A DNA stretch of 39,347 bases from Priapulus caudatus (taxonomy: Eukaryota; Priapulida; Priapulimorpha; Priapulimorphida; Priapulidae): the NCBI RefSeq assembly GCF_000485595.1, contig NW_014577125.1, positions 221,311 to 260,657 on the forward strand, in the 5' to 3' direction. Numbering within the stretch: the first letter of the stretch is position 1; each line of letters starts with the position of its first letter. Shown here in pieces: positions 188 through 27,740 of this stretch. A program made the translations under genes and the position numbers. Under the pieces are notes generated by a model, which saw only the letters and a program-made list of their open reading frames with translations, did not search any database and was not told where the DNA came from.

Positions 188-3100
188 GCTCGTGAAGGCC
201 GGACCACGATCGTCGTTGCTCACCGGCTGTCGACGATCAGGAACGCAGACCGTATCATGGCGATGAAAGAAGGAGCTGTGGTCGAGCAGGGCACGCACGA
301 TGAACTCATGGATATGAAGAGTGTCTACTACGAACTAGTCACGCTCCAGACCGTAGAGGGAATGGAGGAGAACGCAGCGGATGCTGGTGAGGCTCATAGC
401 TAGTGCTAATAACAGTGATATTCTCTATGAATCTCTACATGTTAGATATCGAAAACTATCATCCGCATTGGTCTCACTAATATTTACAGTGCCAGCACCC
501 AGTTACCTGCGATTTCTTGCTAGTTTTTACGCCCTGAATCTGCTTAAATTTTTGGCTCAGTGATTTCAATGTTTTTCTTCAGAACTCGAGCGTAAGGGTC
601 GAAGTTTGAGTATTTCGTCCTCTCTAACGTATTCGAAACAAAAATCACTAAAGGAAATAGAGCTAGATGACATAGAAGAGGTAACAGCAAGAGTGATTGT
701 TTTGCATCAATAGCTTTTACAATTATGGTTTCTAACAAATGCTTCTAATATATTCTCTCTCACAGTCTGTATGCTCACTGAAGTGCATATGCATTTATAT
801 TATTTAACAGTTAGGTTTTTAACATTAAGTCTTTATTTTCTATTAAAATAGAAAAGTAATTAGCCAACATGCCCAAAATATCTCTTCAGTTTCTTCTAAT
901 TTGCATGTCAGGCAAAGACGCTCGTTCAGCCGACCTGGACGCAGATGATGAAAGCGAATTCCCCCGAGTGGCCATACATTATTTGTGGCTGCTGTTCTTC
1001 TGCTGTTGTTGGTGTTGCCATGCCATTGTTTGCTGTTTTTTACAGTGAAATATTCAAGGTAATATGTGTATTTCATTATACAATATTTTAGTAAAATATC
1101 ATCCTATTTTGAAAAATTCGGTTGCATTTTAAAGATGAGATCTCATTAGCTCCGGAAAGCATAACCCAAAAATTAGCATAACCCAAAAACCAAAACCAAA
1201 AGCAAAACCAAAAGCGACTACAAAATTTGGTCATTAAGATACGTTTTATGGTGATGGGTCACATATATATATGCTTGTCCCACTGACATCTGAACATGGG
1301 CAGTTCTTGCATTTTTATGGCTGACAACCGAGTGCTTATAGCAATACTGATATATACTACCGCTACTGCTAAACCTTTACATTTTGTAGGTTTATGGGAT
1401 TAAGGATGATGATGATGAGTTGCTGAAGGAGGCGCGTTTCTGGAGCCTCATGTTCTTGGTGCTGGGTGTGGCGCAGGGATCGTGCTACTTCTTCTCTGTG
1501 AGTAGGTTCATGTACGATTAAACTGAGATTCCTAACTTAATTATTACCTCCGCCAAGGAGGTTGTTTTCGCCCCTGTTTGTTTGTTGGTTGGTTTGTTTA
1601 ATTTGTCTGTCAACAGGATATCTCAAAAAGTTACAAATGGATTTTGATGAAATTTTTTGTACGGGTTGGTATTGGGCCAAGAACCAATCGATTAGATTTT
1701 GGTGGGGATCCAGATCCAGATCTGGATCCAGGATTTTTGCCCTTTTTTGTGGGGAAGACTTCGGATGCATTCAAAATTCATTAAAAAAGAAATTCTGGAT
1801 CTTTTTCCTTTCTTTCCCCAAATTTCTGAAAATTGCATCAAACTATATTGGGTGTACCAGCAAGATGGGAGGACTGTTACGCTGTGGCGGAGGTTTGCTA
1901 TCTCTGATTGCTCTTGTTAAATAAGTTTAATAGATGTATCAGACGGTAAACACTGACCTGTTTAACGTAATGGTGCATGCCATTTGCAAACCATCACATT
2001 TAACTCTAATTATTAATGATCCCGAATGGCACGACTGTTTTGCACAGAGTGTGTTCTTTGGGACATCTGGGGAGCAGCTTACAATGCGGCTCAGGATGCA
2101 GTCGTTCACCAATGTCCTGCGTCAAGACATGGGATGGTTTGATGATCCAAAGCACTCCACAGGCAAGCTGACTACGCGGCTGGCCACTGATGCACCTATG
2201 ATCAAAGGGGTGAGACTTGCACGGCACTACCTAACAGGGAAAAAATTAAAATGTATTTTTCTGGGGCTACTTTTCAAGCTCGCGTGCATGAAAATAGCAC
2301 TCTAAAATTTGGTTTGCATTGAACTCTATGCAAATTTACGGGGGCTCTTTTTGGTATTTCCGGGGCTCTTTTTGGCATTTCGGGGGCTAAATCGCCCCGA
2401 GCCCCCGTGTATTATTTTCACTGCTACCTAACTTTATTGTTTTACTATGTATGCATTTCTCTTACATTCACCTTGACGTTAGCCAGTCTGACGCATTGGT
2501 CAGTATAAAGCGACTGAACTTGATGCGAACTTTTGTAAATGATTCGCACGCTCTTGTTTTTTACAGGCCACTGGAATCCGTCTGGCCACTGCTCTGCAGG
2601 CAGTTATAACTATGGTTGCTGGCGTTACTATAGCGTTTGCGTTCGGATGGAAGCTAGCACTAGTAATCATGGGGACAATACCTATCCTGGCAGTAGCTGG
2701 TGTGCTTCAGATGAAAGCTGTCATGGGTAACCAGAAAAGAGACTCTAAACTACTGGAGGAAGCAGGAAATGTAAGTGAATGTTGAAAAGGAGTGGCCTTT
2801 TCTGGAGGGACCATGTTTTTGAATGGAATTGCAAGATATTTGCTGCCAATAGATATATATGCTAAATACCGTTCATTTCGCGAACGTTTGTTTTACAGAC
2901 TGCAACTGAAGCTGTAGAACACATCCGAACAGTACAATGTCTGACTAGAGAGAGAACATTCTACGACACGTACTGTGATATGTTAAATCTTCCTTTCAAG
3001 TGAGTTGGATTTCATGTTTCTTACACACTGCATTAACATGGCTTCCTAATGGTATATGCTTGTCTTGCACCAGTCATTGGGTCAGTGAGTAACTAATATG

Positions 3101-5211
3101 TAATTGCACAAGCATTGTAGTTCCCAAGTGCACTCACCCTACCAGAGCTGCTGCTGCATGTATGTCTAGAAGCGTTGTATTCAATCTGAATTGTATTTTC
3201 AGAGAAGCAAAAGTACAGGCGCAAGTTTATGCATTAGCTTTTGCCTTCAGTCAATCCGTCATATTCCTCATCTATGGATTTGCCTTTTGGTTTGGCTCAT
3301 ACCTAGTGGGCAAGGAGGAAATGTTGCCAGAGGAGGTGTATAGGTAAACCTTCACTTTGATAAGCATGCCTTGTTAAGTACTATCAGAAAGCTCACCACT
3401 CCATTAATTGTAGAACCATCTAAGTGTCATTTAAACTGTCGAACTATATTTTAGCAAGGCAGTGGTTGTTTGTGTTTGTTCCTTCATGCCATGTTTGGCA
3501 ACAATTGCCAAATAGATGCACACAATCCGAGTGACACACCCTGCAATGTAATGTTTAGAGAGAAGCATATTAGCTAGGTTGTTCTGGCGTGTTTTTACCG
3601 TTCATTCCGCTTTCAGGGTGTTTTTTGCCATCGCATTTTGTGGCATATCCGTTGGCCAGGCATCCTCCTTTCTCCCTGACTACAGTAAGGCCAAGCTGGC
3701 TGCTGCTCATGTATTTGGTCTGATTGCACAAGAGCCTACTATCGACAGCTTCTCGCCAATGGGAATAAAACTGGTGAGCTTATAGCAAGCTGTTGTATAA
3801 AGACGTGACTGAACGGTGTAGCACCTACCTTTGCAGAGTAACTGTTTTGTAAACGGTTAATTACCTCCGCGCAACGGAGTTGCAGGTAGGTAATGAAATC
3901 GCTCTCGTGTGTGTGTTTGTGTGTGTGTTTGTGTGTGTATTCGTGTGCGTGTTCGTGTGTGTGTGTAGCCAGCAGCGAGCCAGCTGTTATACACATGTAT
4001 ACATGTTACACGCGTTGGCGCGATCGATTCAGCACCAGCTCGCCTTAGGGCGTCCAGTCAGCAGCAGCTCGCCTTAGGGCGTCCAGTCAGCAGCAGCCAG
4101 CAGCGAGCCAGCTGTTATACACATGTATACATGTTACACGCGTTGGCGCGATCGATTCAGCACCAGCTTGCCTCAGGGCGTCCAGTCAGCAGCAGCCAGC
4201 AGCGAGCCAGCTGTTATACACATGTATACATGTTACACGCTCGCAGAGGTATGCACTCTCTTTGAGTGCCCTCTGTCTAGTTACTATTGAGACTGAGAAA
4301 CAGACGTGATTGTTGCTGGTATTCAATAAATCGAACGACAATTAATAGTGCATTCAGGTTTTTAATAGCCAATAGTGCTAGCAATCTATAAAGAAAGTAA
4401 AAGTGAGCTACATTTGTTCATCAAATTAGTGGTACTTGACTGTACGTATGACTCGTGTTTGTACTTGCTCAAGAAAGATAATGTACTTTCATAGGTGCTT
4501 TTGGAGAGATTGAGAAATGACATAGATCAAGACAGATCTAAAAGTTATAAAAGATATAAAAGTTTAGCTTTTCAATCGATATCTTAGCTAATAATGAGAA
4601 GGCGATGCATGGCATTGCATGCATACATGTATACTAAAACTATACTATACATAAATGCAGCAATATGTACCAGGGTGCGAAATTAACGCGAGTCCGGAGC
4701 CAAATACTCCCTGATTTACTGTCGGACTCCCTGATTTGACATATGCAGGAGTCCGTGTGACTCCCTGGAAATTCTGCTATACTAACTAGTTCGTTCCAGA
4801 ACACGGTATCGCGGAATTACCGTATTTTTTCAGCAAATCTTCAATTTTGAGCTTCAGACTACGGACTCCCACATTTTGCTGCGGACTCCCTCTTTTTGAG
4901 GGCAGGGAGTTCGTTTCCCTTGTTCAAAAGTTGATTTCTACCCCTGTGTACTATTGCAATATTGCAATAAATATGCAAGCACGTGTGTCTAGTGAGCATT
5001 GTCCATCTTGTAGCCGGACGGGAAAGGCGCGGTGCATTTTGACAAGGTGCACTTTAGCTATCCGAGCCGCCCGGACGTGCAGGTTTTACGCGGGGTCACG
5101 CTGCACATAGAGGCGGGTGAGACTGTGGCCCTCGTCGGTTCGTCGGGATGCGGCAAGAGTACCATCACGCAGCTGCTGCTACGCTTCTACGACCCACAGT
5201 ATGGCTGCGTC
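188..5211 (+). CDS. ABCB1: ABCB1-like ABC transporter, second-half exons (partial gene, 5' end outside window)
   Basis: Ten exons with GT..AG borders and matching phases: 188-386, 583-680, 912-1058, 1390-1497, 2048-2209, 2567-2770, 2899-2999, 3203-3343, 3617-3773, 5014-5211. The first carries the end of NBD1 with the H-loop ([13 protein letters not shown]). The second is the charged Ser/Lys linker. The next seven encode the second six-helix membrane domain (NSPEWPY, then DMGWFDD in the first intracellular loop). The last opens NBD2 with its A-loop (FSYPSRP) and Walker A (GSSGCGKST). This is the full-length P-glycoprotein class, which uses ATP to export lipophilic compounds across the plasma membrane. 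The rest of NBD2 is not in order: the two middle exons lie at 12107-12769 and the last at 5980-6186. Joined in logical order, the visible part is 690 aa, close to the equivalent part of vertebrate ABCB1. The exact ABCB paralogue (1, 4, 5 or 11) cannot be fixed from here. Confidence 0.93.
1541..1920 (+). mobile_element. Dispersed TIR repeat family, copy 1
   Basis: It starts ATTACCTCCGCCAAGG, has an internal GTTTGTTTGTTGG tract and GATCCAGATC palindromes, and ends GGCGGAGGTTTGC...GATTGCTC. The termini are inverted (ACCTCCGCC against GGCGGAGGT). The same family occurs at 3859 and 21945. It sits in an ABC intron. The open frames across it (for example 1562-1924) are non-genic. Confidence 0.75.
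2235..2423. mobile_element. hAT-type MITE, 189 bp, with 8-bp target duplication
   Basis: Terminal inverted repeats are CAGGGAAAAAATTAAAA (left) and CAGTGAAAATAATACA (reverse complement of right). It is flanked by the direct repeat CTACCTAA at 2227-2234 and 2424-2431 (CTACCTAAC if the next base is counted). The interior holds a tandem GGGGCTCTTTTTGG unit. It lies in an ABC intron. Confidence 0.8.
3859..4290 (+). mobile_element. Dispersed TIR repeat family, copy 3, expanded by a minisatellite
   Basis: It begins AATTACCTCCGCGCAACGG and ends GCAGAGGTATGCACTC...GAGTGCCCTCTG, the same termini as the copies at 1541 and 21945. Between them are a (GT)n run (3906-3965) and the minisatellite at 3967-4238. 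It lies in the intron before the Walker A exon. Confidence 0.7.
3967..4238 (+). repeat. About 99-bp minisatellite with internal 28-bp duplication
   Basis: Three copies of a unit starting AGCCAGCAGCGAGCC lie at 3967, 4095 and 4194. Spacing is 128 then 99 bp. The first unit is longer because the CAGCTCGCCTTAGGGCG segment is doubled. Each unit contains the perfect palindrome ACATGTATACATGT. Confidence 0.9.
4671..4946. mobile_element. CAGGG-TIR nonautonomous element with 5-bp flanking duplication
   Basis: The left end CAGGGTGCGAAATTAAC matches the reverse complement of the right end, CAGGGGTAGAAATCAAC. TGTAC abuts both ends (4666-4670 and 4947-4951). The interior repeats GGACTCCC and GGAGTCC several times. 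It lies in an ABC intron. Confidence 0.72.
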
Positions 5212-5387
5212 GTAAGTTCCACATTTACTCTGTCAATAAAGTCGTAAACATGGTAGATCGCTAACGAAACAATCAAACCACTCTACTCAGTCCATCACAC
5301 CACATCTTCCAAAGATGCAGCTACAAGCTGCAGCTATGTGAGGTTAGCTAAAAATTACAATAATTCTATCACTTTATTTTATTACAG

Positions 5388-5662
5388 AAAGGCTACAGGT
5401 TTTATTCTACAGAACTTCCTAAACGAAAAATACCAGGAAAGGGTAAAAGTGTAAGTATTTCTAGCCTGAGGTGAAGATCGTGATGTATCAAATCTTTTTG
5501 TTTGTTTGATTTACGACAGTAATGTGCTTGTCAAGCAATGAGTACAGTTCTGTGCTTAATTTGTGCTTCAGCCGATCACATGGAAGAGTGTAGCAATAAC
5601 AGCTGGAGTTGCTGGCTGCATCTATGTTGGGATGCATTTTCTCAAGAAGGAGAAGCAAGCAG
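5388..5662 (+). CDS. SCO1: SCO1 exons 2 and 3 (membrane anchor), displaced
   Basis: Exon 2 is 5388-5450 (starts KGYRFYSTELPKRK, ends GKGKS, donor GTAAGT). Exon 3 is 5572-5662 (PITWKSVAITAGVAG, then a hydrophobic stretch and KKEKQA, phase 1, donor GTAACA). Together they give the matrix-side segment and the single inner-membrane helix of SCO1, in the typical pattern of a WKS motif, helix and basic/acidic linker. Phase 1 matches SCO1 exon 4 at 13035 exactly. In the window these exons sit inside the ABC transporter gene, between its Walker A exon (5014-5211) and its terminal exon (5980-6186), on the same strand. Confidence 0.88.
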
Positions 5663-5979
5663 GTAACATATATATATTTCAGGCTAATAAAAAAAGTTTA
5701 GTTCAAATCATGTTATTGGATGCGATAACAATTAATTATCAAAATAATAGATTTAATTATTGACATTATTTTAGGGTGGAAGCCTATTTTAGGTTGACCT
5801 CTATGTGTTATTTATAGACAATTTGACATAGTGATTTCAGTACATTAAACGCCCAATGTCTATTTAAACTGGGTGTTGTAGGGTCTAGCTATGACTGGGT
5901 GTTGTGATTACTCGTGGGACTACACATGAGTCCCGCTGCTTGTGCTTAATATAACGTTGTGTTTGTTTCTCACCACCAG

Positions 5980-6186
5980 CTGGTGCAGGAGGCCCTAGAC
6001 CGCGCCCGCACGGGTAGGACCTGCATCATCATCGCTCATAGACTGTCGACAGTCCAGAATGCCGATAAGATCGCTGTGATAGAGGATGGTCACATCGCTG
6101 AGGTCGGCAGTCCACGCGAACTGCTCGCTGACGCAGGCAGCCTTTACTTCTCACTGACGAAGAACCAGCGCATAGAGAGACGCTGA
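5980..6186 (+). CDS. ABCB1: ABCB1-like terminal exon (end of NBD2)
   Basis: The acceptor CACCACCAG precedes a phase-0 exon starting [15 protein letters not shown], with the NBD2 H-loop ([14 protein letters not shown]), then [13 protein letters not shown], ending in stop TGA at 6184-6186 after RIERR. In every ABCB protein this follows directly on the D-loop SALDTESER, which here ends the exon at 12623-12769, more than 6 kb downstream. The exon therefore sits upstream of the two exons it should follow, and two SCO1 exons lie between it and the Walker A exon. The reading frame and splice site are perfect, so it is not a decayed copy. Confidence 0.93.
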
Positions 6187-7025
6187 TCACCGTCATACGT
6201 CTGGCTTAGGTCTACCTACGTAGCGTATCCATCTGCAACGGGTTTGCTTCGCTACTGTTGCTCATACGAGCTTCATATGAGGAAATATAAGGAACTTCAT
6301 ATCCCTTCTAACCTCATATGAAGGGATGCATAGATGATAGGGATAGCATCTGCTCTGGTGACGTGATCTTACTATGATGTAATTGTGACACAAATCCTAG
6401 CTTGGTGCTGGTAGTCACATTTTATATTACTTGGTTACGGAATCGAATGTGTTGGTGTCTGTTGGGCACAACTGTTTTGTTAAGGAAAGCAACCATTATG
6501 AAGATGAAGTATTTTAGGTGTAGCATGTTTATGTTCTTGGCTAAGGTATATGCTACGTGAAGGCGGGCAAGTCTTATCTTGCCTTATTTCATTCACTTTA
6601 CCTCATAAGCTTAAAATAATAGTCCCATCCATTAGTCTTAGTCTTACCAGACTTGGGCAGGTGGCTACAGCCTGCAATCGTTCTTTGCTTTTTATGCACA
6701 CACTTGTTGCTTCACTGCAACTTATGAAAGCAATCAGGATAGTGGAGGATATATATTAGAATATCTCGATACAATCATTTCTTGTTAAAAACGCTAATGA
6801 TGCCAATTTAAACGTTCAAATTTTAAAAATTTAGACCCCTCTAGTTTTTTGTAAGGATAGCAACGAAGTATACTATGTTTATGAATGTTGATTTATTACT
6901 TGAACTTGAATCATATACAACAAAGGCTTCCACGTTAGTGTAAGAGTTGCTAAGAGCATACTTCTGTCTTCCCTGCATGCCACATATCACTTTCAAACGT
7001 AAACTATTGAGCTACTTAACAGTCT
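6187..7025. other. Gene-free stretch after the ABC stop
   Basis: It may hold the ABC 3'UTR. A short inverted CTTCATATGAGG/CCTCATATGAAG pair occurs near 6269-6320. I see no convincing coding signal. Confidence 0.5.
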
Positions 7026-7170
7026 TAAGCCCAACGCACGCGTGAGTAATTTTACTCAAGTAAAATGATGCATGCGTCAAAATACTCACATGTGCGGCGG
7101 ATTTTCGTTGAGTATTTTGACGCATGCATCATTTTTCTTGAGTAAAATTACTCACGTGTGCGCCGAGCTT
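7026..7170. mobile_element. Long palindromic MITE-like hairpin
   Basis: Two arms of about 62 bp are complementary with few mismatches: GCACGCGTGAGTAATTTTAC on the left against its complement in TACTCACGTGTGC on the right, separated by a short centre near 7092-7110. There is no clear target duplication. Confidence 0.85.
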
Positions 7171-7985
7171 TAGATAGCCTACTGATTGACCCACCTAAAG
7201 TGTTTCCCGTTCTCGCAATGGGAGTGAATAATGCCCCCGTAGGGTGCCTTAGCTCGTCCGTCAGGGACATATCAGCCCTGTGTCCAGCAATCTCTGGTGC
7301 GACCATTGGTTGTATGTTTCTTTGTGTCGTCTACATTAGTCCCTTGACAGTACCGTCTGCTGTGTATACAATGATATCATTTAAATGGTTTAATTTATGA
7401 TGGTTCTTTAGTCTTTTTATCCTATTGATAAATGAGTATTTATTCTCTTTGTTACCAAATGTATTTATGATAAAATAATTTTCAAAACTCGTGTTCTTTT
7501 ACATAATTAGTTTGAAATCTGAAGTCATATTGCAAACATTCCTGTTGAAAATTATGAGCAAATAACAAGATAATGCCAATATAAAGTTGAAACTTGCTGG
7601 CTTTTATATCCTATGAAATAGTTAAGGTAAAATCGGATGCTTTCAAATTAAGACAATCTTATTTGTATTGATTATTATGTGATTCAGTCAATGCAGTGTA
7701 AGAAACATGCATTTATAATGTCACACGGAATAAATTGGTCACCTAAATTAAAGATAATTTTGCATTGATGTTTATTGTGTGTATTATTGCAGTCTGATAC
7801 CTCATGATATAAATTGCCATGCATGAAACTCCCTAGAATTGACAGAAGCTGCTGCAGTATGTCCAGCCTGGTCGAGCGACGTGCCAGCGCTGGGCCAACA
7901 AGTGGCTAACACTCTGCCAACTATGATCCACCGATGATCCAACGTTGGGTCGACAGTGGTTTAGTATGTCACTATTATTTTATCT
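7171..7985. other. Gene-free AT-rich stretch
   Basis: No coding or RNA gene recognised. The short open frame at 7158-7400 has no recognisable protein features. Confidence 0.5.
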
Positions 7986-7990
7986 CGCGC

Positions 7991-8044
7991 GCGGCTCTCT
8001 CTCTCTCTCTCTTCTCTTCTCTCTCTTCTCTGCTCTCGCTCTCG

Positions 8045-8087
<43 letters not shown>

Positions 8088-8205
8088 TCTCTCACTCTCT
8101 GTCTCTGTCTCTATCTCTCATTATATTGTGACATCTCTCTCGCTCTCACCTTCCCCTCTTCTGTCGCTCTCACTCTCGCTCTTCTCATTTTCTTTCCCCT
8201 TTTCT
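7991..8205. repeat. (CT)n microsatellite
   Basis: Almost pure CT with interspersed G/T. The Ser/Leu-rich open frames across it are artefacts of the repeat. Confidence 0.95.
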
Positions 8206-9267
8206 CATTTCGGCTCTTAGATCGCGATCCACCGCTCAGTGCACTCACGCCATACGATCACGCACTACGCCCGCACGTCACGCATCACATACACACACAA
8301 ACTCCACCACACACATGTACGCTGTGCCTCACGCCCCATTACGTTCAAGTCTCGCGTGGCGCACTACCCCAGTGACCTAGCCGCCTAGAACACACTATGG
8401 CACAGATGGATTTTGACCACGAAAAAGCCTCCCTATTGGAGGCTTTTGGCAAGTATATTTCTAATCTCTAAATTCTGTTATTCATTTAAAGATTGTTAAA
8501 TTAGAATAGGCTCCCCGAGTTAGTGATCTTTGTGGGGATTTAGCTTTAATTTCGTCAGCATTAGCCATGCAGCTTCCATTGCTGACTCTGGGATCGATTC
8601 TAACTTTAACGCTATGGTAGCTGGCTCTCGGATAGTTGTTCAGGTAGTTCAAATTGTCGATGGCGTTGGCCTAGACAGGGGTTTCCTTTTATTCCTTCCG
8701 GTCTCCTCCTGTCTTTTATCTGTCTGTCCCGCTTCCCCTAGTGTTAGCGTTCATTGTTTGCTTCTTCTTTTTGTTTCTGATGTGTTATTTTTGTGTCCAG
8801 GGATTTGTCTCCAGGGGTGTTTCTAAACCCAGGTACCCAAATACTTGGCTTAGCATCGGCGGATCGGGGGGGGGGTCTGGGGGCCTCTCCAGAATTTTTT
8901 TAAAATTAGACCCCTCTTTTAGATGCGTTTTTTCTGCGCGGAGCAGGGTGGGGGGGGTGGCCGGACCTCCCTGGACCCCCCCCCTGTACACACTCCTGCC
9001 TAAGACGATAATGCATGAAGCTTTTGCAGGAGGTAGGGACTCATGGGATTGAAATTTTATATTATCAAATGCCTTTCTCGAAAGTCCTGCACCAGTCACT
9101 GCTGATGGCATACTGTTCTTGTGACATATCTTTCTTAACACAGCCTCATCAGAAGGTGGTGGGAAACCATTATATCATATTGTAAATATCATATCTATAG
9201 ATATCAATACAATAGTATAATTATTATGCTGTTTATTATATCATATATATACTATTAATATATATTA
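8206..9267. other. Intergenic, includes G-run dispersed repeat
   Basis: A C/G-homopolymer-rich block with ACCCCTC motifs (about 8840-9000) resembles an old transposon copy. GCCTCC...GGAGGC forms a small hairpin at about 8428-8449. No gene supported. Confidence 0.45.
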
Positions 9268-9330
9268 TATGTATATCAAGAGTAGATAATTAGGGATTCC
9301 CTATTATCTATTCTCCTGGTATATGTATAT
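9268..9330. repeat. AT hairpin element, copy 1
   Basis: The inverted pair TATATCAAGAGTAGATAAT / ATTATCTATTCTCCTGGTATA has the centre TAGGGATTCCCTA. It is related to the hairpin at 18235-18335. Confidence 0.75.
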
Positions 9331-9647
9331 AGTTATAATATTATTATGTGTATGTATACACTGATGCATAAACAATAAACTGCTAACTACGTAGTAATAA
9401 CTAAATTAAGAAGCAAAGTTACAAGTAAAGAATAAAACCTAATAAATTAAGCGATTAGAAATAACAAATGTAAAAATTAAACAATCAAAATGCGAAAAGT
9501 TACGTGAATAGAGGGCGCGCTGTATATAGAAATGTCTGCGCCCATTCTGGTGTTTTTTTTACACGGTCTAGCAAGCAAGCCATACCAGAGCTAGCTATCT
9601 GTTTACTGAAATACTGCGTCTACTTGGTAGTATATTTTAGAGCTGTA

Positions 9648-9824
9648 ATGTTAACTAATGGCATTAGGCGCTGTGTTTCATTTTGTCGTTGGCAGTCTTT
9701 ACGGACGTTACATTCAAGTAAATCTGTTATTCAAGAAACTGCAGCAAAGCAAAATGTTTCGTTGAACGTGACCAGGTCCAGAGTTTGTGATGCTAGTGAA
9801 TCGTCATTCCATCGATATAGCCGG
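9648..9824 (+). CDS. SCO1: SCO1 exon 1, mitochondrial presequence (probable)
   Basis: An ATG at 9648 opens a 59-codon exon ending SFHRYSR before a GTATAG donor at 9825, phase 0, which matches the phase-0 exon at 5388. The N-terminus (MLTNGIRRCVSFCRWQSLR) is rich in Arg, Ser and hydrophobic residues with no acidic residue, as expected for a mitochondrial targeting peptide. Presequences are poorly conserved, so the assignment rests on position, phase and composition. With it, SCO1 totals 295 aa, near the usual length of about 300. It lies downstream of exons 2-3 (5388-5662), the reverse of the expected order. A TATA-like TATATAG occurs at about 9523. Confidence 0.62.
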
Positions 9825-10230
9825 GTATAGTAAATATAGTATTTGTATTTTACGTATGAAATCCGTACATGTCGCTCCTGGTGACCGTAAAATGATGATT
9901 AACATGTGTTTGTCAACAATCGTTTATAAACGGGCAGTATCCCGATAACTTAATTTGTTTGCTTGGTCCCCCCATGGCCATGACAAAGGGCCTAATAATG
10001 GTTGGATAGTTACCAGGGTTAGGTGGTTGTTATGTCAGAATAGCTAAACGAAGTCCAGTCAAACCCGAGGTCAGGAGAGACATTTCAGACCTTATCTGCT
10101 TCACACTCACATTCATGTGATTGTGGCGACTTGCCGTACACGCGATGATTGCCGGAACGGGACGCTCTGCTGGCATTGTGCTCGTAAATATACAATATAT
10201 GCACTGCTGTCATTCTATCCTTTCATCGTT
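9825..10230. other. Non-coding stretch after SCO1 exon 1
   Basis: Probably SCO1 intron 1 if exon 1 is correctly called. Nothing else recognised. Confidence 0.4.
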
Positions 10231-10231
10231 T

Positions 10232-10293
10232 CCTCTTCTTTGCTCTCCTCTCCCTCTCTCTTTCACACACACACGCATACATCTAGCTCTCTT

Positions 10294-10332
<39 letters not shown>

Positions 10333-10665
10333 TCTCTTCTCTTTCTCTCCCTCTCTCGCTCTCTCTCAAACACACACACACACACCTTTCTAGCTTCTCT
10401 CTTCTCTCTCTCTCTCTCTTCTCTCGTCTCTACTCTCTTCTCTTCTCTCTCTCCTCTTCTCCTCTCTCTCTTTCTCTCTCTTTCTCTGTGCTCTTCTCTG
10501 CTCTCGCACACCACACACACCACACACACCTCATAAGCTCTCTCCTCTCTCTCTCTCCTCTCTCTTCTCTCTCCTCTACTCTCTCTCTCTCTCATCACAC
10601 ACTCTAGTCTCTCTCTTCACCACACAACACCTCTAGCTTCTCTCTCTTCTCTCTCTCTCTCTTGT
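10232..10665. repeat. CT/CA compound microsatellite
   Basis: (CT)n blocks alternate with (CA)n. Open frames on both strands here are repeat artefacts. Confidence 0.95.
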
Positions 10666-11089
10666 AATGTTCTTATTTGTTTGGGTTGATTTGGATTGAT
10701 ATTCAAACCATACATTGAACTCGAAGCATTTTATAGACACTTTCGTTTTCTGTTCTCCAATCTCCATCCCGCTGCCTTCCTTTCTTTCTATTATTTTCGT
10801 CGATTGAGTTCCGCTCACGCATGCGTCACATCTGCCGAATAGAGGTCTAGCATCGATACAAAACTTGCGTAACACTAGGGCTGTTACATACACATTCCTC
10901 TCCCAACTTGACAGAATGTCTATGCCATACAAAATAATGATATAAAACACTGGGGGATTATTTGTTTATTTAAAATTAAATGAGCGCAATTTTTTTTTTA
11001 ACAAAAACGGTAATTTCCAGCAGTAAGCTTGATGATTTAGGCAATATCTCATACATTCGTCATTCTAATATTCCGTTCCGTACTACTTA

Positions 11090-11772
11090 CAGGCCATGGT
11101 ATCGAGTCCGCCTCACTTAAACCACTCCTATACTGGAGTGCCTGACGCTCACCCCTTCCCCCTCGTCTCGCTCGCAGCTCTGCTCTTTGCAGCCTTCTCA
11201 GCGTAGCGCTCTTACTGGAGCCGACTCGCTCGTCCGCACTACACGTGGCCCCCTCTCGGTCGGCGGCATCGTCTGGTCCGATCCCTCGTATTGCTTGTGT
11301 AAACCCACAGCTCTTCCCTCCTCTCCTTTATACTTGCCGCACTGACGTCGGGACGTCTTTTCCTGGACGTCGTGGAGGTGCCGTTCTAGCGTTTTAAATC
11401 GGCGTATCGATTTTTCTGGTTACCAGTCCCTCCTGCCCTCCATGACGCTCTGCCTGTCCTACCATCGATCCTCATTTCTCTTCGTCACAACGAGGGGTTT
11501 AGGCCCAAACGGCTTTTGTCGGTCGGACTTTTCCTATGCCCTTCTCTCAGGAGCAACCGGTTTTCACAATTTTATATCACCAGACTTCTGTCTGGACATA
11601 TTGCCTTTTCGATCCGTATACACCTTCATCCTGCCGCTTTAAAGACTTCGGCTTTGTCCTTCTGAGTTGTGTTTGCGGACGTCCGTGCTGTTGCGGTGAT
11701 TCTCTTCGTACGGCGATCCGTTGTAGGGTGTTTTGGATGGCGTCCCATCCTCCGAACATCAGCGTATCGATT
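11090..11772. other. GC-richer anomalous block ending at the assembly gap
   Basis: Base composition is clearly more GC- and CpG-rich than its surroundings, with repeated GACGTC/GGACGTC and CGTATCGATT (11402 and at the gap edge, 11763). It may be part of an unidentified mobile element. No protein recognised. Confidence 0.4.
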
Positions 11773-11782
11773 NNNNNNNNNN
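11773..11782. other. Assembly gap (10 N)
   Basis: Ten N bases. The gap lies between the block holding the ABC terminal exon and SCO1 exon 1 and the block holding the two missing ABC exons, so it coincides with one breakpoint of the exon scrambling. Confidence 1.
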
Positions 11783-12106
11783 AAACTTGGGCCTTTTTTC
11801 TTCCTCTATACCCTCTATGCTAGACTGACATCTAGGGAATTATTTTCTTACACATATTACACTTATGATAAACCACTATAGTCTCAGTAGCCTCAGACTT
11901 GGCAGGAAGAGATATCTAGAAAGCTTGTTCTATATATATATATATTATATTAACATTGATGATTTATTTCATTTACTAAAAAATCCAAAATTCCCGCATC
12001 CGATATTAATATTAATTAAATTCTTAATTTTCAAAAAATTAAAATTCGATCAAGTCGTAAGAACAGGAAGTGTGCATGGTTGCATTTTATGTCTTTTCTT
12101 GCATAG

Positions 12107-12310
12107 CTTATTGACGGCAAGGACCTGCGAACGATTAACATCAACTGGCTCCGCAGCATTATCAGCATTGTCAGTCAGGAGCCGGTGCTATTCGACAACA
12201 CTATACGCAGCAACATCAATTATGGCGTGGAGGAGGAGCTGCCGATGGCTGTCATCGAAGAAGCAGCCAAGATCGCCAACATACACGACTTCATCGTCTC
12301 TCTTCCAGAC
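12107..12310 (+). CDS. ABCB1: ABCB1-like NBD2 exon with Q-loop (displaced)
   Basis: This phase-0 exon of 68 codons runs between the acceptor TTGCATAG and the donor GTACGT. It begins [11 protein letters not shown] and contains the Q-loop ([11 protein letters not shown]) and TIRSNINYG, ending HDFIVSLPD. It continues the Walker A exon that ends FYDPQYGCV at 5211 without loss or gain of a residue: both borders are phase 0, and the sum reads like a normal ABCB NBD2. It is located about 6.9 kb from that exon and beyond the gene's own stop codon, just after the 10-N assembly gap. Confidence 0.93.
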
Positions 12311-12622
12311 GTACGTGCAGTGGCGCCACCTGAAGTGTCACCGAGAAACATTATATTATGCGATTCCGGCATTTTCAAAGATGAATAAAATGAGAGAATG
12401 AAGAAAAAATACAGAATTCAGCTAGCAACCCTGTTTGGTGTTGTGTAGTTGTAACTGTTCACAATAGGGCATAAATTTAGAAGAATAGAATAGGGAAGGC
12501 GGGAGGAAAGGAATTGCTTCATGTTGCTGCTTCACTGTCACTGCAAATCTAGTGTGGAATATATTGCACTTCCGTGCCTGTAAACTAACACGCTATCTCC
12601 TTGCTGCTGTCATCATTTTCAG

Positions 12623-12769
12623 CAATACAATACGATGGTGGGTGAGAAGGGCACTCAGCTGTCCGGTGGCCAGAAGCAGCGGGTTGCCATTGCTCGTGCC
12701 CTGGTGAGGAAGCCACGAATCCTCATTCTCGACGAGGCAACATCCGCTCTGGACACGGAGAGTGAGAGG
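12623..12769 (+). CDS. ABCB1: ABCB1-like NBD2 exon with signature and Walker B (displaced)
   Basis: This phase-0 exon of 49 codons starts [12 protein letters not shown]. It contains the ABC signature (LSGGQKQR), Walker B ([12 protein letters not shown]) and the D-loop, ending TESER before the donor GTAAGT. All catalytic elements are intact, including the Walker B glutamate. Its proper downstream partner is the terminal exon at 5980-6186. In the window it is instead followed, 265 bp later, by SCO1 exon 4. Confidence 0.93.
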
Positions 12770-13034
12770 GTAAGTCCACTAAGCACGTACGTGGCTCGGA
12801 AAGATCTGTCTGTCAAAGAGTATGGTTTTAGGGCATGTGTAGTGAACCCTGATTTACTTTGTTGCTTAGTTTCTTATAGTTACATAGTTGCACTTGGTAC
12901 TGAGAGTGAGAGGGTAGATCCATCAAATCTGTGCTTCAGAAATATTGCCCATGATGATAATGGCATGATGATATTGCCATGATGATATTGCAGAGGGAGG
13001 GGAGAAATAATAAGCATTATGGGTTGTTTTTCAG

Positions 13035-14820
13035 CTATAGATAAAGAGCGAAAGCGTTCACTAGGCAAGGCAAAGCTTGGTGGCGATTTTAACCTAATCG
13101 ATCACCATGGCAAGCCGCGATCCAGTAAAGACTTTCTCGGCCAGTGGATGTTACTGTATTTTGGCTTCACTCATTGCCCGGATATCTGTCCAGATGAGAT
13201 TGAGAAGATGTGTGAGGTGGTAGATAAGATAGGTGCGTTGTGCATATTTAAGAATTCTTAATGGTGAAAATTTGGCAACTCATGACAGGTAACAGGAAGT
13301 ATATAATATTCTTTTTGTGGAAAAACTGATCATCTAAACCTTAGGTTTGTAATTAGTAATATAAATGTTATAATGTTTTGAAGTGGTGTTAAAAATATTT
13401 TTACATGGCAATGCACAATTCCAAAGTGAGTTGGAAAAAAAGACAATGCACGAATGAGTGAGGGATAGAGATGTAGACAGGTGAGAAAAAGTAAAGAGTA
13501 AGCAATAGGAATAGAAAATGTTCATCCTCTTCTATTTCACTAACATAAAACTCCCTTGTTTTTCCACAGAGGCGATGGAGAATATACCAGGTGTTACACC
13601 ACTTTTCATAACAGTAGATCCAGATAGGGATGATGTGGCAACTGTGAAGCAATATGTTGAAGGTAATAACAAGCAAGTTAATTGTATCTTTCATAAGAGG
13701 TGGGGCGATACAGGTAACTCGCGATATATGACGCGTATCAGGATACGATACATACTGAGATACTTTCAAGAGAAACTACCTAGCAAAGTATATACTTAAC
13801 TTGTTCTTTACCCATCATGAATGCTTACAAATCAGTATCAGTTAGTAAACAACTGCTATTGAACTGCAAATTGTGTCATGCTTTGTTTGTTTTCTGACGA
13901 AACTATGTTACCAAATGATATAATTTTATTCAGTAGAGTATTGATCATGACATGTGTGTCACAAATAGTCAAACGTATCGATACATATATCATCAAGATT
14001 TGTATTGCAATACAACTATATATTAATAAACCGTCCCACCCCTGTTTATCATAGTAGATGAATTTAGTATATTAGGATGAAGAAACAAGTTTCTAAAAGT
14101 TATGAAAATATTGTTTTACACAACAAAAGAACTAAAAACATATCCCTTATTTGATTGAATAATTTCATCGGATCTCTATGGCTCACATGCTAATAAAGTT
14201 TATCTCAGTTAGATCCATCAGTTCGATTTTTAACTTAATTTGGATCTAACTGAGATAAACTTTATTAGCATATCCCTTATTCTTTTTGTATCATTATATT
14301 TGCTGAAATGTATAATCGGTACATCATTTTACAGAGTTTTCTCCAAAACTACTTGGTTTGACTGGGTCAAAAGAACAGCTGCAAGAGGTGTGCCGTGCGT
14401 ATAGAGTGTATTACAGTGCAGGACCACGAGATGATGACGATGACTACATTGTAAGCACTTATATAAGTAATGCCTGCAAATGAATTCATCTTACACATTC
14501 CTATTCTTATGATATGTGTGCATTCCTGTGTCGTTATAATATATGTGTACGTGTAACATTTGAGCTTTGTATATGATTTTCTAATGGTGACAAAAATTGT
14601 CCAAACAAACCCACAAACAGCAAGCAAAATTTGTGGCACTACTTGCTAATGGCTTCTCTTGGGTGTTTAGGTGGATCATACAATCATCATGTATTTCATA
14701 AATCCGGATGGGGAGTTCCTCGACTACTACGGGCAGAACAAGACCGCTGATGAGGTTGTCAGCAGTATCAGCGTACACATGGTGAAGCATCAGAACTCCA
14801 AGAAGCTGCTTAGCTGGTGA
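13035..14820 (+). CDS. SCO1: SCO1 exons 4-7 (copper-binding thioredoxin-like domain)
   Basis: Exons are 13035-13232, 13570-13662, 14335-14450 and 14671-14820, all with GT..AG borders and consistent phases (1,1,0). The protein continues [17 protein letters not shown], then the copper-binding CxxxC motif in CPDICP, then [22 protein letters not shown] and the distal copper ligand histidine in VDHTIIMYF; stop TGA is at 14818-14820. SCO1 is an inner-membrane copper metallochaperone that delivers copper to the CuA site of COX2 during cytochrome c oxidase assembly. All metal ligands are present. It converges on AURKAIP1, with poly(A) signal AATAAA at 15325. SCO2 is not excluded, but a single SCO gene is usual in invertebrates. 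The first three exons are out of order upstream. Confidence 0.93.
14188..14270. repeat. Perfect 30-bp inverted repeat in SCO1 intron 5
   Basis: The arms 14188-14217 and 14241-14270 are exact reverse complements (TGCTAATAAAGTTTATCTCA...). CATATCCCTTATT occurs just after the right arm (14269-14281) and also at 14149-14161. Confidence 0.92.
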
Positions 14821-15432: not shown

Positions 15433-17750
15433 TCACTCGTACGACTGCACTGGAGGCTTAGGTATGACTTGAAAGCCTGGTGGCATCCGCAACCGTTTCC
15501 CCTTCACAGGGTTATTCTGCCAGTAGACGACATCATTGTACTTGTTCAGTGTGGATTTCACATGTTGCTCTGCATCAAACTCCTCTGCCCCCTGTAAGTA
15601 AATATACATTGTAACTGGCTGTGATAATACAGCAAATAATAAAACGTTAAATAATTTCAAAGTGAATCTTTTCCCATGTTAGTGACTTGTGTTACAATTT
15701 ATTAAAACTATCCTTATTACCATAAGGTTGAATTTTTTTTAAATAAAATTTGTGAATTTCTGAACCCCGAGTGTATATATAATCTTGATTACTGCAATGC
15801 AGAATTGGGGGTGCTACTACTGTTTGCGATTTCTCACTTCTGGCTGAATTACCTTTGATGACATTGACAATATTCGTTTAGAAAATGGTTCACAAATATG
15901 CAGTATATAACAGAAAATAGGCTGTATCACATAAACACTCGTAAGCATATTTATAACTTACATGTAGCACCAATGCTAGTTCTTTCTGCAAGGCTTTCTC
16001 TTTTCTCTTTATTCGCTTCTGCTTCACCTGTTGACATGAATAAATATGTATTAAAATCATTCATAACCTCGACTTTGTTGGTAGCTGAGGTATGGACACA
16101 TCAGAAATGCTATAACTCGTAAAGTTTGAATGCGCAATGTTCAGTAAACCAAATTGCTTTTCTCGAGCTGCTTCTATGGTCCATCCAAAAAATACCAGTG
16201 CAACTGTAATGACAGACGCACCCTTCGGTAGGCAAATCGCATCTTCTTCTTCAGCTTCTTCAGTTTATGCTTGTTCATTTTTGAACGCCTAATCTTTATC
16301 ATCCCGCACGGCATCTTGCCCTTGGCGATAATCTCCTCCACCGGCAGCCTCTGCGGCATCTCTAGTGACACGTCCGAACGAACGGGCTCCACCTTTTCCT
16401 CAGTTGCAACACCAGGCACCTCCTTCTCAGTCACCTCTGCGCCAGGCACAGTGTATATTATTGGCACGACTGTCTTAGGTGCTGTCGGACATTCATACTT
16501 AAATTGTGATGTTTCTCCGTAGCAGCGCAGTTTAGTAGTCCCACGTGTTGCTACAAAGGTGCTTGTAGGCATTTCAACTTGTCCATAATATAATGGCAGT
16601 TTGTGCAATCGTGCTGCCTTGTCGTTCTTGCCCACTAACAGGGAACTAAATGTCTCGGAGAGTTCTGCGACAGTAGTATCAAGGACTTTACATTTCGACC
16701 TTTCACTGGAGCTTTCTTCAATTGCTGTGATACCATAGACAACACCTGGGAACCGACTCACTTGGCTCTTACTCTGTGACGAAACAGTACCTAAAAATAC
16801 ATATTTATAGTACTTTAGCTTATTAATATTAGTTATACATTTTACAATAGCACTTTTACGAGTGGCGCTGCCTGTTACACTGTCACTGGTTACAGAAAAA
16901 TCTGTATCTCCGAAGGAATACATTACACCTCAAAATATATACGTACAAGTATAATAATGTATCATGCAGTAATTACCAATGCATCGTATGACATAACTGA
17001 TAAACTAAGTCATAACCAATAAATAGTGATCTGGAAATTTTATAATCTGATGCTATTCTAATCTAGGGTTCAATAGGGGGCCACAACCAAAATACGGTGA
17101 ACTTTTGTACGATGTTTTTACGCTGTGGCTATATGCCTGGCAGCCGGGCATGGTCTTCGATTTCCTAAATGCCCGGCAGTTCCTAACCCTAACCCTTGTT
17201 TACTTGAGATAACGCTGAAAATTAAAAACTGCCGGGCATTTAGGAAATCGAAGACCGTGCCCGGCAGCCGTCAGATATATGCCGGCTGCCGGCATATAGC
17301 CACTCTGATGTTTTAAATGTTTCTGACCATGTAATATTAAAACTCTAAGATTAAGAAATATCGGCCCTAGTCTAGAAGACATACAATGATACATATGTCC
17401 CACAATACCCTACTTCATGTCTACGACTACAATACAATACACAATGGCCGGGTCATGTCTTCTAGACTAGCTCCGAAATATCTACTAGTACTAATCTAGC
17501 TTTATTAATTGACATTGACAATTCACTAGGCCTATTAATCACGACACTAGGCCTAAAGTATATTGACATTGTTTTGATTATTTTTCACACGCACTGACTG
17601 ACTCATGACCGATTGATTGAGTTCGACTGTCTACAGTCTAGTTCAACTGACGTCGTTAATTTTAAGAAGCTATTATTAATTACCTATTCCAGAAATAACA
17701 ACGTGGCGAAAATATGAAGAACTGCTCGATCGCGTTAAACAGGGTAACAT
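15433..17750 (-). CDS. AURKAIP1: AURKAIP1 / mitochondrial small ribosomal subunit protein mS38, complete
   Basis: Four minus-strand exons: 17684-17750 (start ATG), 16222-16790, 15962-16027 and 15433-15591 (stop). Phases 1, 0 and 0 match at every junction, giving 286 aa. Exon 1 is a short Arg/Ser-rich presequence (MLPCLTRSSSSYF) fitting mitochondrial import. The diagnostic part is GMIKIRRSKMNKHK followed by KKLKKKMRFAYRR at the end of exon 2, the basic C-terminal mS38 signature that contacts 12S rRNA at the decoding centre. Exon 3 adds a second basic helix (KQKRIKRKEKALQ). Exon 4 ends PPGFQVIPKPP. The acidic and Pro/Val-rich middle is poorly conserved. Human AURKAIP1 was first described as an Aurora-A interactor, but its main role is in the mitoribosome. 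Exon 1 was chosen because it alone gives a phase-1 donor after an ATG; an alternative in-exon ATG at about 16923 lacks a good donor. Confidence 0.82.
17121..17307. mobile_element. Hairpin hAT-type MITE, about 187 bp
   Basis: The arms carry TGGCTATATGCC at both ends and a long inverted CGGGCATTTAGGAAATCGAA core. The right end reads CAGAGTGGC when reversed, a hAT-like terminus. The flanks ATGTTTTTA (left) and ATGTTTTA (right) fit an 8-bp target duplication with one T slipped. The centre contains CCTAACCCTAACCC. Confidence 0.7.
17361..17476. repeat. Inverted repeat around CTAGTCTAGAAGACAT
   Basis: CTAGTCTAGAAGACAT near 17367 and its complement near 17454-17470 form a stem with a loop of about 70 bp. 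It lies in the region upstream of the AURKAIP1 exon-2 side. Confidence 0.7.
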
Positions 17751-19522: not shown

Positions 19523-19679
19523 CCGTACACGCTCTACAGTACACTCACACTTAGCCCGACCAGGCTGTGTGACTAACGAGTAACGTCAATATTATTATGA
19601 ATATATACACAGTCTGACATCCATCCATTGCCATTGGATAATCTTGTACCTGTACAAAAACTGCCGAACAATTACGTAT

Positions 19680-20254
19680 CGACGTGGATATTCGTCCGAG
19701 CATCGTACACCTGTTTGTATGCGCTATTCGTCTGAGCAGTTGTTGGGCATGCGCTGTTCATGTTGCATGCCGCAGGCGCACCTCACGAGCGCCGTAGGTA
19801 GGAAGTTTGAAGGTGGGTCTAGTTTTTAATTTTTAAATCTAGACGCTCTAAAATGCTATTTACTCTTTCGATTTTTGATTATTTTATGCCCTTTAGGCTG
19901 GGGGCCTGTAGCGTTTTGCTACGGCAGCCCTACAGCTGTGACGCCCCTGCATACATGCGTTGCGTATGTGGTTATACACCATAGATAGTGTTTGGTACTA
20001 TCACTCGCGTATATATACGAAACCGAGAGTATAATAAGAGAACCGAGTCGTTTTATAGTTAGTGTTAGGGTTAGTGCTGGGGTTAGGATTAGGGTTAGGG
20101 TTAGAGAGTAGGCGTGTTTAGGGAGTAGGCGCCTCCCTAAACTAGCATTATATTACATTTATGTAATGCAACATGAACAGCGCATGCGCTACAACTGCTC
20201 GGACGAATAGCTCATACGAACAGGTGTCCGATGCTCGGACGAATATCCACGTCC
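19680..20254. mobile_element. MULE-like nonautonomous element, about 575 bp, with 9-bp target duplication
   Basis: About 100-bp terminal inverted repeats: left GACGTGGATATTCGTCCGAG (19681 on) matches the reverse complement of the right end (20165-20253) with few differences, down to GTTCATGTTGC. ATTACGTAT flanks both ends (19671-19679 and 20255-20263). Long TIRs with 9-bp duplications are the hallmark of Mutator-like elements. The interior has no transposase, a telomere-like tract and a GACGCCCCTGC sequence that may be the end of a nested hAT-like insert. Confidence 0.85.
20069..20106 (+). repeat. Telomere-like TTAGGG tract inside the MULE-like element
   Basis: Degenerate GGGTTAG hexamers (GGATTAGGGTTAGGGTTAG) between the TIRs. 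Too short and imperfect to mark a chromosome end. Confidence 0.7.
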
Positions 20255-20439
20255 ATTACGTATATCTCAAATAAAATAATCATCTAAGTATTTCTGCCTT
20301 GTTTTGTAACAAGTATAACCTTCACGTTATAAGTTATAGTATTCCAGCATTGTTATTAAAACTAATAGTAATACCTCAGTTCGCTGTGCACAGTGTAATT
20401 TTCAAGAGCCGAACCTAAATTTCACTTTAACCGCCATGT

Positions 20440-22656: not shown

Positions 22657-27740
<5,084 letters not shown>

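Follow-up and report, generated by a model that had tools for sequence, protein, structure and literature searches.

Interleaved exons of an ABC transporter gene and SCO1 in a draft genome assembly of Priapulus caudatus very probably reflect misassembly

The order of exons within a gene can serve to detect misassembly of genome sequences (PMC3426473). Gaps become overfilled partly through scaffolding errors (PMC3504050), and a study of hybrid assemblies treats such overfilling as an indication that contigs were wrongly joined (PMC9635638). These statements, like the others cited below, come from excerpts of the papers concerned. Here we consider a 39,347-nucleotide stretch of the Priapulus caudatus assembly GCF_000485595.1 (contig NW_014577125.1, positions 221,311 to 260,657), termed the window, in which exons of a P-glycoprotein-type ATP-binding cassette (ABC) transporter gene and of SCO1 are mutually interleaved on one strand and in scrambled order, as judged by splice-site, frame and tblastn checks. 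We regard it as very probable that this scramble is an assembly artefact and not a biological feature.

The locus is divided into blocks numbered 1 to 5 from left to right in the window, which meet at borders 1/2, 2/3, 3/4 and 4/5. The assembly searched comprises 385,217,808 bases in 2,952 contigs, with the window at C65:221311-260657. The first and second nucleotide-binding domains (NBDs) of the transporter are distinguished where needed, the second being termed NBD2. Coordinates are those of the window unless a contig is named.

188 to 3773, + strand: block 1, ABCB exons for the end of the first NBD, the linker and the second transmembrane domain, in order (splice sites and frames; most also by tblastn)
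5014 to 5211, + strand: block 1, NBD2 exon with Walker A, phase 0 at both ends (tblastn; single DNA match in the assembly)
5212 to 5387, + strand: border 1/2, free of Ns (only itself matched in the assembly)
5388 to 5450, + strand: block 2, SCO1 exon 2 (frame and splice sites; by-eye likeness to homologue P0002)
5572 to 5662, + strand: block 2, SCO1 exon 3 (tblastn; frame and splice sites)
5663 to 5979, + strand: border 2/3, free of Ns, with a 12-base direct repeat at 5868 and 5894 (no further copy in 239 kb of C65)
5980 to 6186, + strand: block 3, last ABC exon with the H-loop and stop codon (tblastn)
9648 to 9824, + strand: block 3, putative SCO1 exon 1 with ATG and presequence-like residues (open reading frame, frame, phase; no tblastn match)
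10662 to 11766, - strand: insertion-rich fragment of a Gypsy-like retroelement, the C-terminal end of the integrase frame and beyond (genome search and alignments)
11773 to 11782, no strand: 10-N gap at border 3/4 (sequence)
12107 to 12310, + strand: block 4, NBD2 exon with the Q-loop (tblastn)
12623 to 12769, + strand: block 4, NBD2 exon with the signature and Walker B (tblastn)
12770 to 13034, + strand: border 4/5, free of Ns, with a 33-base degenerate copy of the signature exon and a 14-base tandem repeat at 12949-12991 (no further copy in 239 kb of C65)
13035 to 14820, + strand: block 5, SCO1 exons 4 to 7 in order at 13035-13232, 13570-13662, 14335-14450 and 14671-14820 (tblastn and frames)

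A sequence-only reading of this stretch had listed the exons together with their strand, splice dinucleotides and left-to-right order, all of which is borne out by the splice and frame checks and by tblastn searches with six homologues (three SCO1 and three ABCB). These searches place pieces of NBD2 at 5014-5211, 5980-6186, 12107-12310 and 12623-12769, and SCO1 exon 3 at about 5572-5662, exon 4 at about 13035-13232 and the later exons after it; no tblastn match was obtained at about 583-680 or about 1390-1497 among the ABCB exons of block 1. SCO1 exons 2 and 3 are indeed located within 5388-5662, as had been read, and their boundaries can now be refined to two exons, 5388-5450 and 5572-5662, the first of which was unmatched in tblastn with the three SCO1 homologues. 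Each conserved exon of NBD2 and SCO1 is present once at the locus with its orientation kept. No second copy of a conserved exon was matched there by tblastn, except that the exon at 188-386, which encodes the final part of the first domain, is matched as well by the final part of NBD2; the two domains are paralogous, and such a cross-match is expected.

Reading the blocks in the order 1-4-3-2-5 was proposed to restore both genes, and it does so: NBD2 and SCO1 each become open in one frame with no stop inside. The restored NBD2 (5014-5211, 12107-12310, 12623-12769, 5980-6186) is an unbroken sequence of 251 residues with a stop codon at its end. The restored SCO1 (9648-9824, 5388-5450, 5572-5662, 13035-13232, 13570-13662, 14335-14450, 14671-14820) has 295 residues and consistent phases. 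In the window order, SCO1 carries seven internal stops in its best frame and NBD2 carries one, where the stop codon of its last exon precedes the Q-loop exon. The original arrangement was probably 1-4-3-2-5, with an ordinary SCO1 gene lying downstream of the ABCB gene in the same orientation.

The NBDs of ABCB full transporters carry Walker A, Q-loop, signature, Walker B and H-loop motifs, and these come together in one NBD in the restored order only. Over residues 5-246, the restored NBD2 can be aligned with the second domain of a P-glycoprotein chain (6ujt_A); the alignment has two gaps of one residue each, both away from the exon joins. SCO1 proteins are marked by a thioredoxin-like SCO domain with a CxxxCP motif and a distal histidine. 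The restored SCO1 has such a domain, its residues 121-287 aligning with CPDICP and VDHT to SCO1 chain 2gqk_A, which we take to be the human protein. In protein searches the named best matches are animal proteins, none of them close, among the 120 listed for each search. Top identity is 67% for the restored SCO1 (best 120 of 2251 with E<=0.001) and 57% for the ABC half protein (best 120 of 7990 with E<=0.001), and a 132-residue frame of the signature exon that reaches into border 4/5 is matched at 90% identity over 39-40% of the query (best 120 of 7901). The top SCO1 match, sturgeon SCO1-like protein P0001, contains the same stretch twice in tandem, probably as an annotation or assembly artefact, and was set aside as a homologue on account of this internal duplication. 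An exact 46-base SCO1 exon pattern had no match in viral contigs and none in prokaryote genome contigs, collections that may exclude the records to which the window belongs.

The sequence at border 3/4 provides the most direct evidence on the origin of the scramble. The 10-N gap that had been noted there is confirmed at 11773-11782, and the retroelement sequence on its left stops at 11766, six bases before it. A genome search with 11000-11772, in which ten candidates were scored and the copy number is accordingly a lower bound, found matches in at least 10 places, namely the window and at least nine others. Four of the nine other alignments extend to query positions 766-767, which correspond to 11765-11766 of the window. 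Three of these four copies (L031, L032 and L033) were compared further and continue past the cut, 93-96% alike, for about 1 kb (L032) to the 1.5 kb fetched (L031 and L033). This likeness beyond the cut-off point suggests in addition that the retroelement family may be young. Upstream of the matched part, one copy encodes an RNase H domain, an integrase zinc finger and an integrase core domain, an arrangement from which we take the element to be Gypsy-like.

Alignment of the window fragment to these copies reveals an excess of inserted bases. Relative to L031, the closest copy, there are 447 matches, 15 mismatches, 141 extra bases in 74 runs and 6 missing bases. The corresponding values are 460, 40, 179 in 82 runs and 7 for L032, and 473, 58, 157 in 81 runs and 25 for L033. 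When the copies are compared with each other under the same scoring, they differ by 85-136 mismatches and 47-69 indel bases over 1,718-2,261 aligned positions. Farther from the gap, the segment at 10662-10932 has 43-46 extra bases, 6-10 missing bases and 14-17 mismatches relative to the three copies, with alignment scores of 234.5-244.5 versus at most 57 in 100 shuffles per copy. The intervening segment, 10933-11163, is largely unaligned, with 231 window bases opposite only about 25 in the closest copy, and a tighter alignment of 10661-11163 as a whole is clearly above shuffles.

We know of no evolutionary process that inserts bases every few positions with almost no changes or removals. From its pattern of differences, the insertion-rich stretch would be uncorrected long-read sequence and not a product of evolution, and a poor consensus of a few reads would explain it equally well. 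Single-molecule PacBio reads are described as having about 15% error skewed to insertions, with 9% insertions, 4% deletions and 2% mismatches (PMC3504050). Because the insertion-rich repeat is cut at the N gap while the three copies continue, nothing in the sequence supports the join of block 3 to block 4. A misjoin is expected to place a border within a gap or within spurious sequence, and border 3/4, with 10 Ns beside a truncated, insertion-rich repeat, is such a border.

Genes of the same kind elsewhere in the assembly keep their exon order, which is also expected if the locus is misjoined. A genome search with the restored NBD2 gives 36 matches: 25 that group into seven NBDs outside the window, six single ones and five within the window itself. 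The seven other NBDs have three or four matched exons each and are located on C101 (two), C407 (three), C156 and C291 (one each); exon order is kept in every one of these seven, the other ABC domains with at least three matched exons. In one of the C101 domains (384590-387781), three introns occupy the same places as in the restored window gene, each between codons on a by-eye reading. Within the window itself, WDR5 (23299-27734) is collinear along its ten best segments when weaker matches between its repeats are disregarded, the query being a human sequence.

The copy number of the two genes is informative as well. At E<=0.1 the restored SCO1 matches the 385-Mb assembly seven times, each time within this locus, and the protein search turned up no second SCO gene. 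Likewise, the Walker A exon has a single DNA match in the assembly. Animals need SCO1 for assembly of cytochrome oxidase, and a broken sole SCO1 is for this reason hard to accept. Scaffold misassembly had been named as the likeliest cause of the scramble, and that view gains support from the insertion-laden retroelement that ends at the N gap and agrees with the seven orderly ABC domains and with the absence of further SCO matches elsewhere in the assembly.

If the scramble is an artefact, two small pieces, blocks 2 and 4 (about 0.3-0.8 kb and about 1.0-1.25 kb, respectively), would have changed places during assembly or scaffolding. In the true locus, SCO1 intron 1 or a stretch beside it would hold the Gypsy-like retroelement. 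Uncorrected long-read sequence would have been added rightwards from block 3, running into the repeat and falling short of block 4, and the 10-N gap would mark the place where the extension failed to reach block 4. We infer that the three gap-free joins arose by wrong gap closure or wrong contig merging.

Several observations weigh against an artefact, or against parts of the scheme just described. Five of the nine other retroelement alignments end at query positions 633-642, some 125-135 bases short of the cut. A looser alignment of 9825-11170 to the three copies is not clearly better than chance and was unusable, scoring 296, 297 and 267 versus shuffled maxima of 284, 302 and 273 (20 shuffles). 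The insertion rate of the stretch exceeds the single-read profile given in the excerpt of PMC3504050 and quoted above. A homopolymer statistic gave no signal either in the insertion-rich stretch or in the other borders and was useless here. Extensive N runs in the surrounding scaffold could hide a second SCO copy: over the 200 kb preceding the window (C65:21311-221310), Ns make up 123,121 bases, in runs of 2,512 (cut by the fetched stretch), 13,402, 26,286, 7,601, 25, 21,969 and 51,326 bases. The longest of these runs ends exactly at the window start, and several are flanked by simple repeats. The assignment of SCO1 exon 1 to 9648-9824 holds for its ATG, frame and phase, to which presequence-like residues can be added; homology gives it no support, as this putative mitochondrial presequence exon is matched by none of the three SCO1 homologues in tblastn, and its donor (GG/gtatag) is weak. 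Without it, a swap of blocks 3 and 4 alone would put the exons of both genes in order, with the genes still interleaved. We consider this simpler swap, in which exon 1 does not belong to SCO1, to be the less likely one. Finally, borders 1/2, 2/3 and 4/5 are free of Ns, exact words common to any two borders reach 11 bases at most, and border 1/2 matches only itself in the assembly.

The last of these points bear on whether repeats could have caused the exchange. Ambiguity in a short-read assembly graph with interleaved repeats at the four borders would be a special form of misassembly, and it predicts precisely that blocks 2 and 4 trade places with their orientation kept; a dispersed repeat is indeed present at border 3/4. 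However, the same repeat does not occur at paired borders: borders 1/2 and 3/4 share exact words of at most 9 bases, borders 2/3 and 4/5 of at most 8, as do the three gap-free borders among themselves, no other repeat was found to link the borders, and the four borders and the right flank of the gap, searched against 239 kb of C65, window included, give only self matches. The classic pattern of a repeat swap is thus not seen, and we disfavour this explanation as having a very slim chance of being correct. The same gap-free borders without shared repeats would suit a real local rearrangement, in which a segment (blocks 4 and 3, or 3 and 2) was excised as a circle, reopened elsewhere and reinserted less than 1 kb away. 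By our own reasoning, one excision and one reinsertion turn 1-4-3-2-5 into 1-2-3-4-5 with no inversion or loss, and circular DNA intermediates have been reported to change block order in human segmental duplications whose junctions carry no more than micro-homology or short indels (PMC7450558, excerpt). All four new junctions should then be continuous sequence, but the 3/4 join is missing and a truncated, insertion-rich repeat with Ns stands in its place. Were blocks 4 and 3 excised, the junction of the circle itself would be border 3/4, the one absent from the sequence; were blocks 3 and 2 excised, it would be border 2/3, yet the 3/4 join would still be needed. The sequenced copy would also be broken, with the animal living on another allele or copy, whereas no second Walker A exon (DNA) or second SCO gene (protein) was found in the assembly. 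We give such a rearrangement a slim chance.

It had further been proposed that a truly scrambled locus would require trans- or back-splicing, unless another intact copy exists. This is correct for the backward junctions 12769 to 5980 (ABC) and 9824 to 5388 (SCO1), one per gene, but not for 5211 to 12107 and 5662 to 13035, which are forward splices over about 7 kb; because two of the four junctions run forward, the need for trans-splicing is narrower than claimed. Expression of both genes in this way, with the other junctions made by forward exon skipping, would be in keeping with the frame, splice dinucleotides and phase kept in all exons and with the apparently single copy of SCO1 in the assembly, which should be functional. 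The hypothesis is nevertheless barely credible, since the border 3/4 join lacks sequence support, exons are ordered in the seven other ABC domains examined, and two neighbouring genes would need trans-splicing at once. It is just as improbable that the gap-free borders are genuine, that a circle mediated the exchange of blocks within about 1 kb and that the sole SCO1 is rescued by one trans-splice per gene. A real scramble would make the locus an unusual example, its two adjacent genes being mutually scrambled yet still required for life.

With misassembly as the preferred explanation, users of this assembly should expect the gene models for the ABC transporter and SCO1 at this locus to be wrong. 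The insertion-rich stretch beside the N gap also suggests that the draft retains unpolished long-read sequence.

Other features of the window were recorded. An inverted repeat at 7023-7174, with 66-base arms that are 91% complementary and 20 bases apart, resembles a small foldback element, and an inverted pair of about 97 bases (19673-19768 and 20166-20262) is 92% identical. In the intron that follows the signature exon, 144 bases downstream, a 33-base segment (12890-12922) is a 79% copy of the 3' end of that exon, a likeness that suggests an old local exon duplication. Two open reading frames on the minus strand were named by eye: one at 26284-26754, in a WDR5 intron, resembles the end of a LINE reverse transcriptase, and the other, at 16174-16929, has a terminal lysine-rich motif like that of AURKAIP1/mS38 mitoribosomal proteins. 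Rfam gave no matches at gathering thresholds.

Among the titles and abstract openings listed by literature searches, which were not aimed at the species, no description of this locus was found; several described systems are comparable in part. The instaGRAAL Hi-C scaffolder permutes neighbouring bins and, as at this locus, moves small segments locally (PMC7386250, excerpt). There is no evidence of its use for this assembly, and border 2/3 contains no GATC site and one GANTC site; the idea of a link to restriction sites was dropped, such sites being too common for the result to be informative. Rearrangement through circular intermediates likewise changes block order without inversion and without shared repeats at the borders. 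The cases in the excerpt of PMC7450558 are large segmental duplications, 8 of 16 with at least one junction resolved, whereas the present case involves no duplication and has a gap in place of one junction. In the rhesus macaque, as here, exon order compared with homologues exposes misassembly, although the anomalous genes in the excerpt of PMC3426473 are split between chromosomes and those of the window are two neighbours interleaved within 8 kb. In overfilled-gap misjoins, long reads extend from one contig, the next contig is not met and a short run of Ns remains (PMC9635638; PMC3504050; both excerpts), as at border 3/4; the present locus differs in having three further borders with N-free joins and in its run of 10 Ns, fewer than the 25 that PBJelly requires for a gap. 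Set beside the ABCB1/P-glycoprotein and SCO1 genes of other animals, the restored proteins are ordinary members of their families, and the order of exons in the draft is the sole difference.

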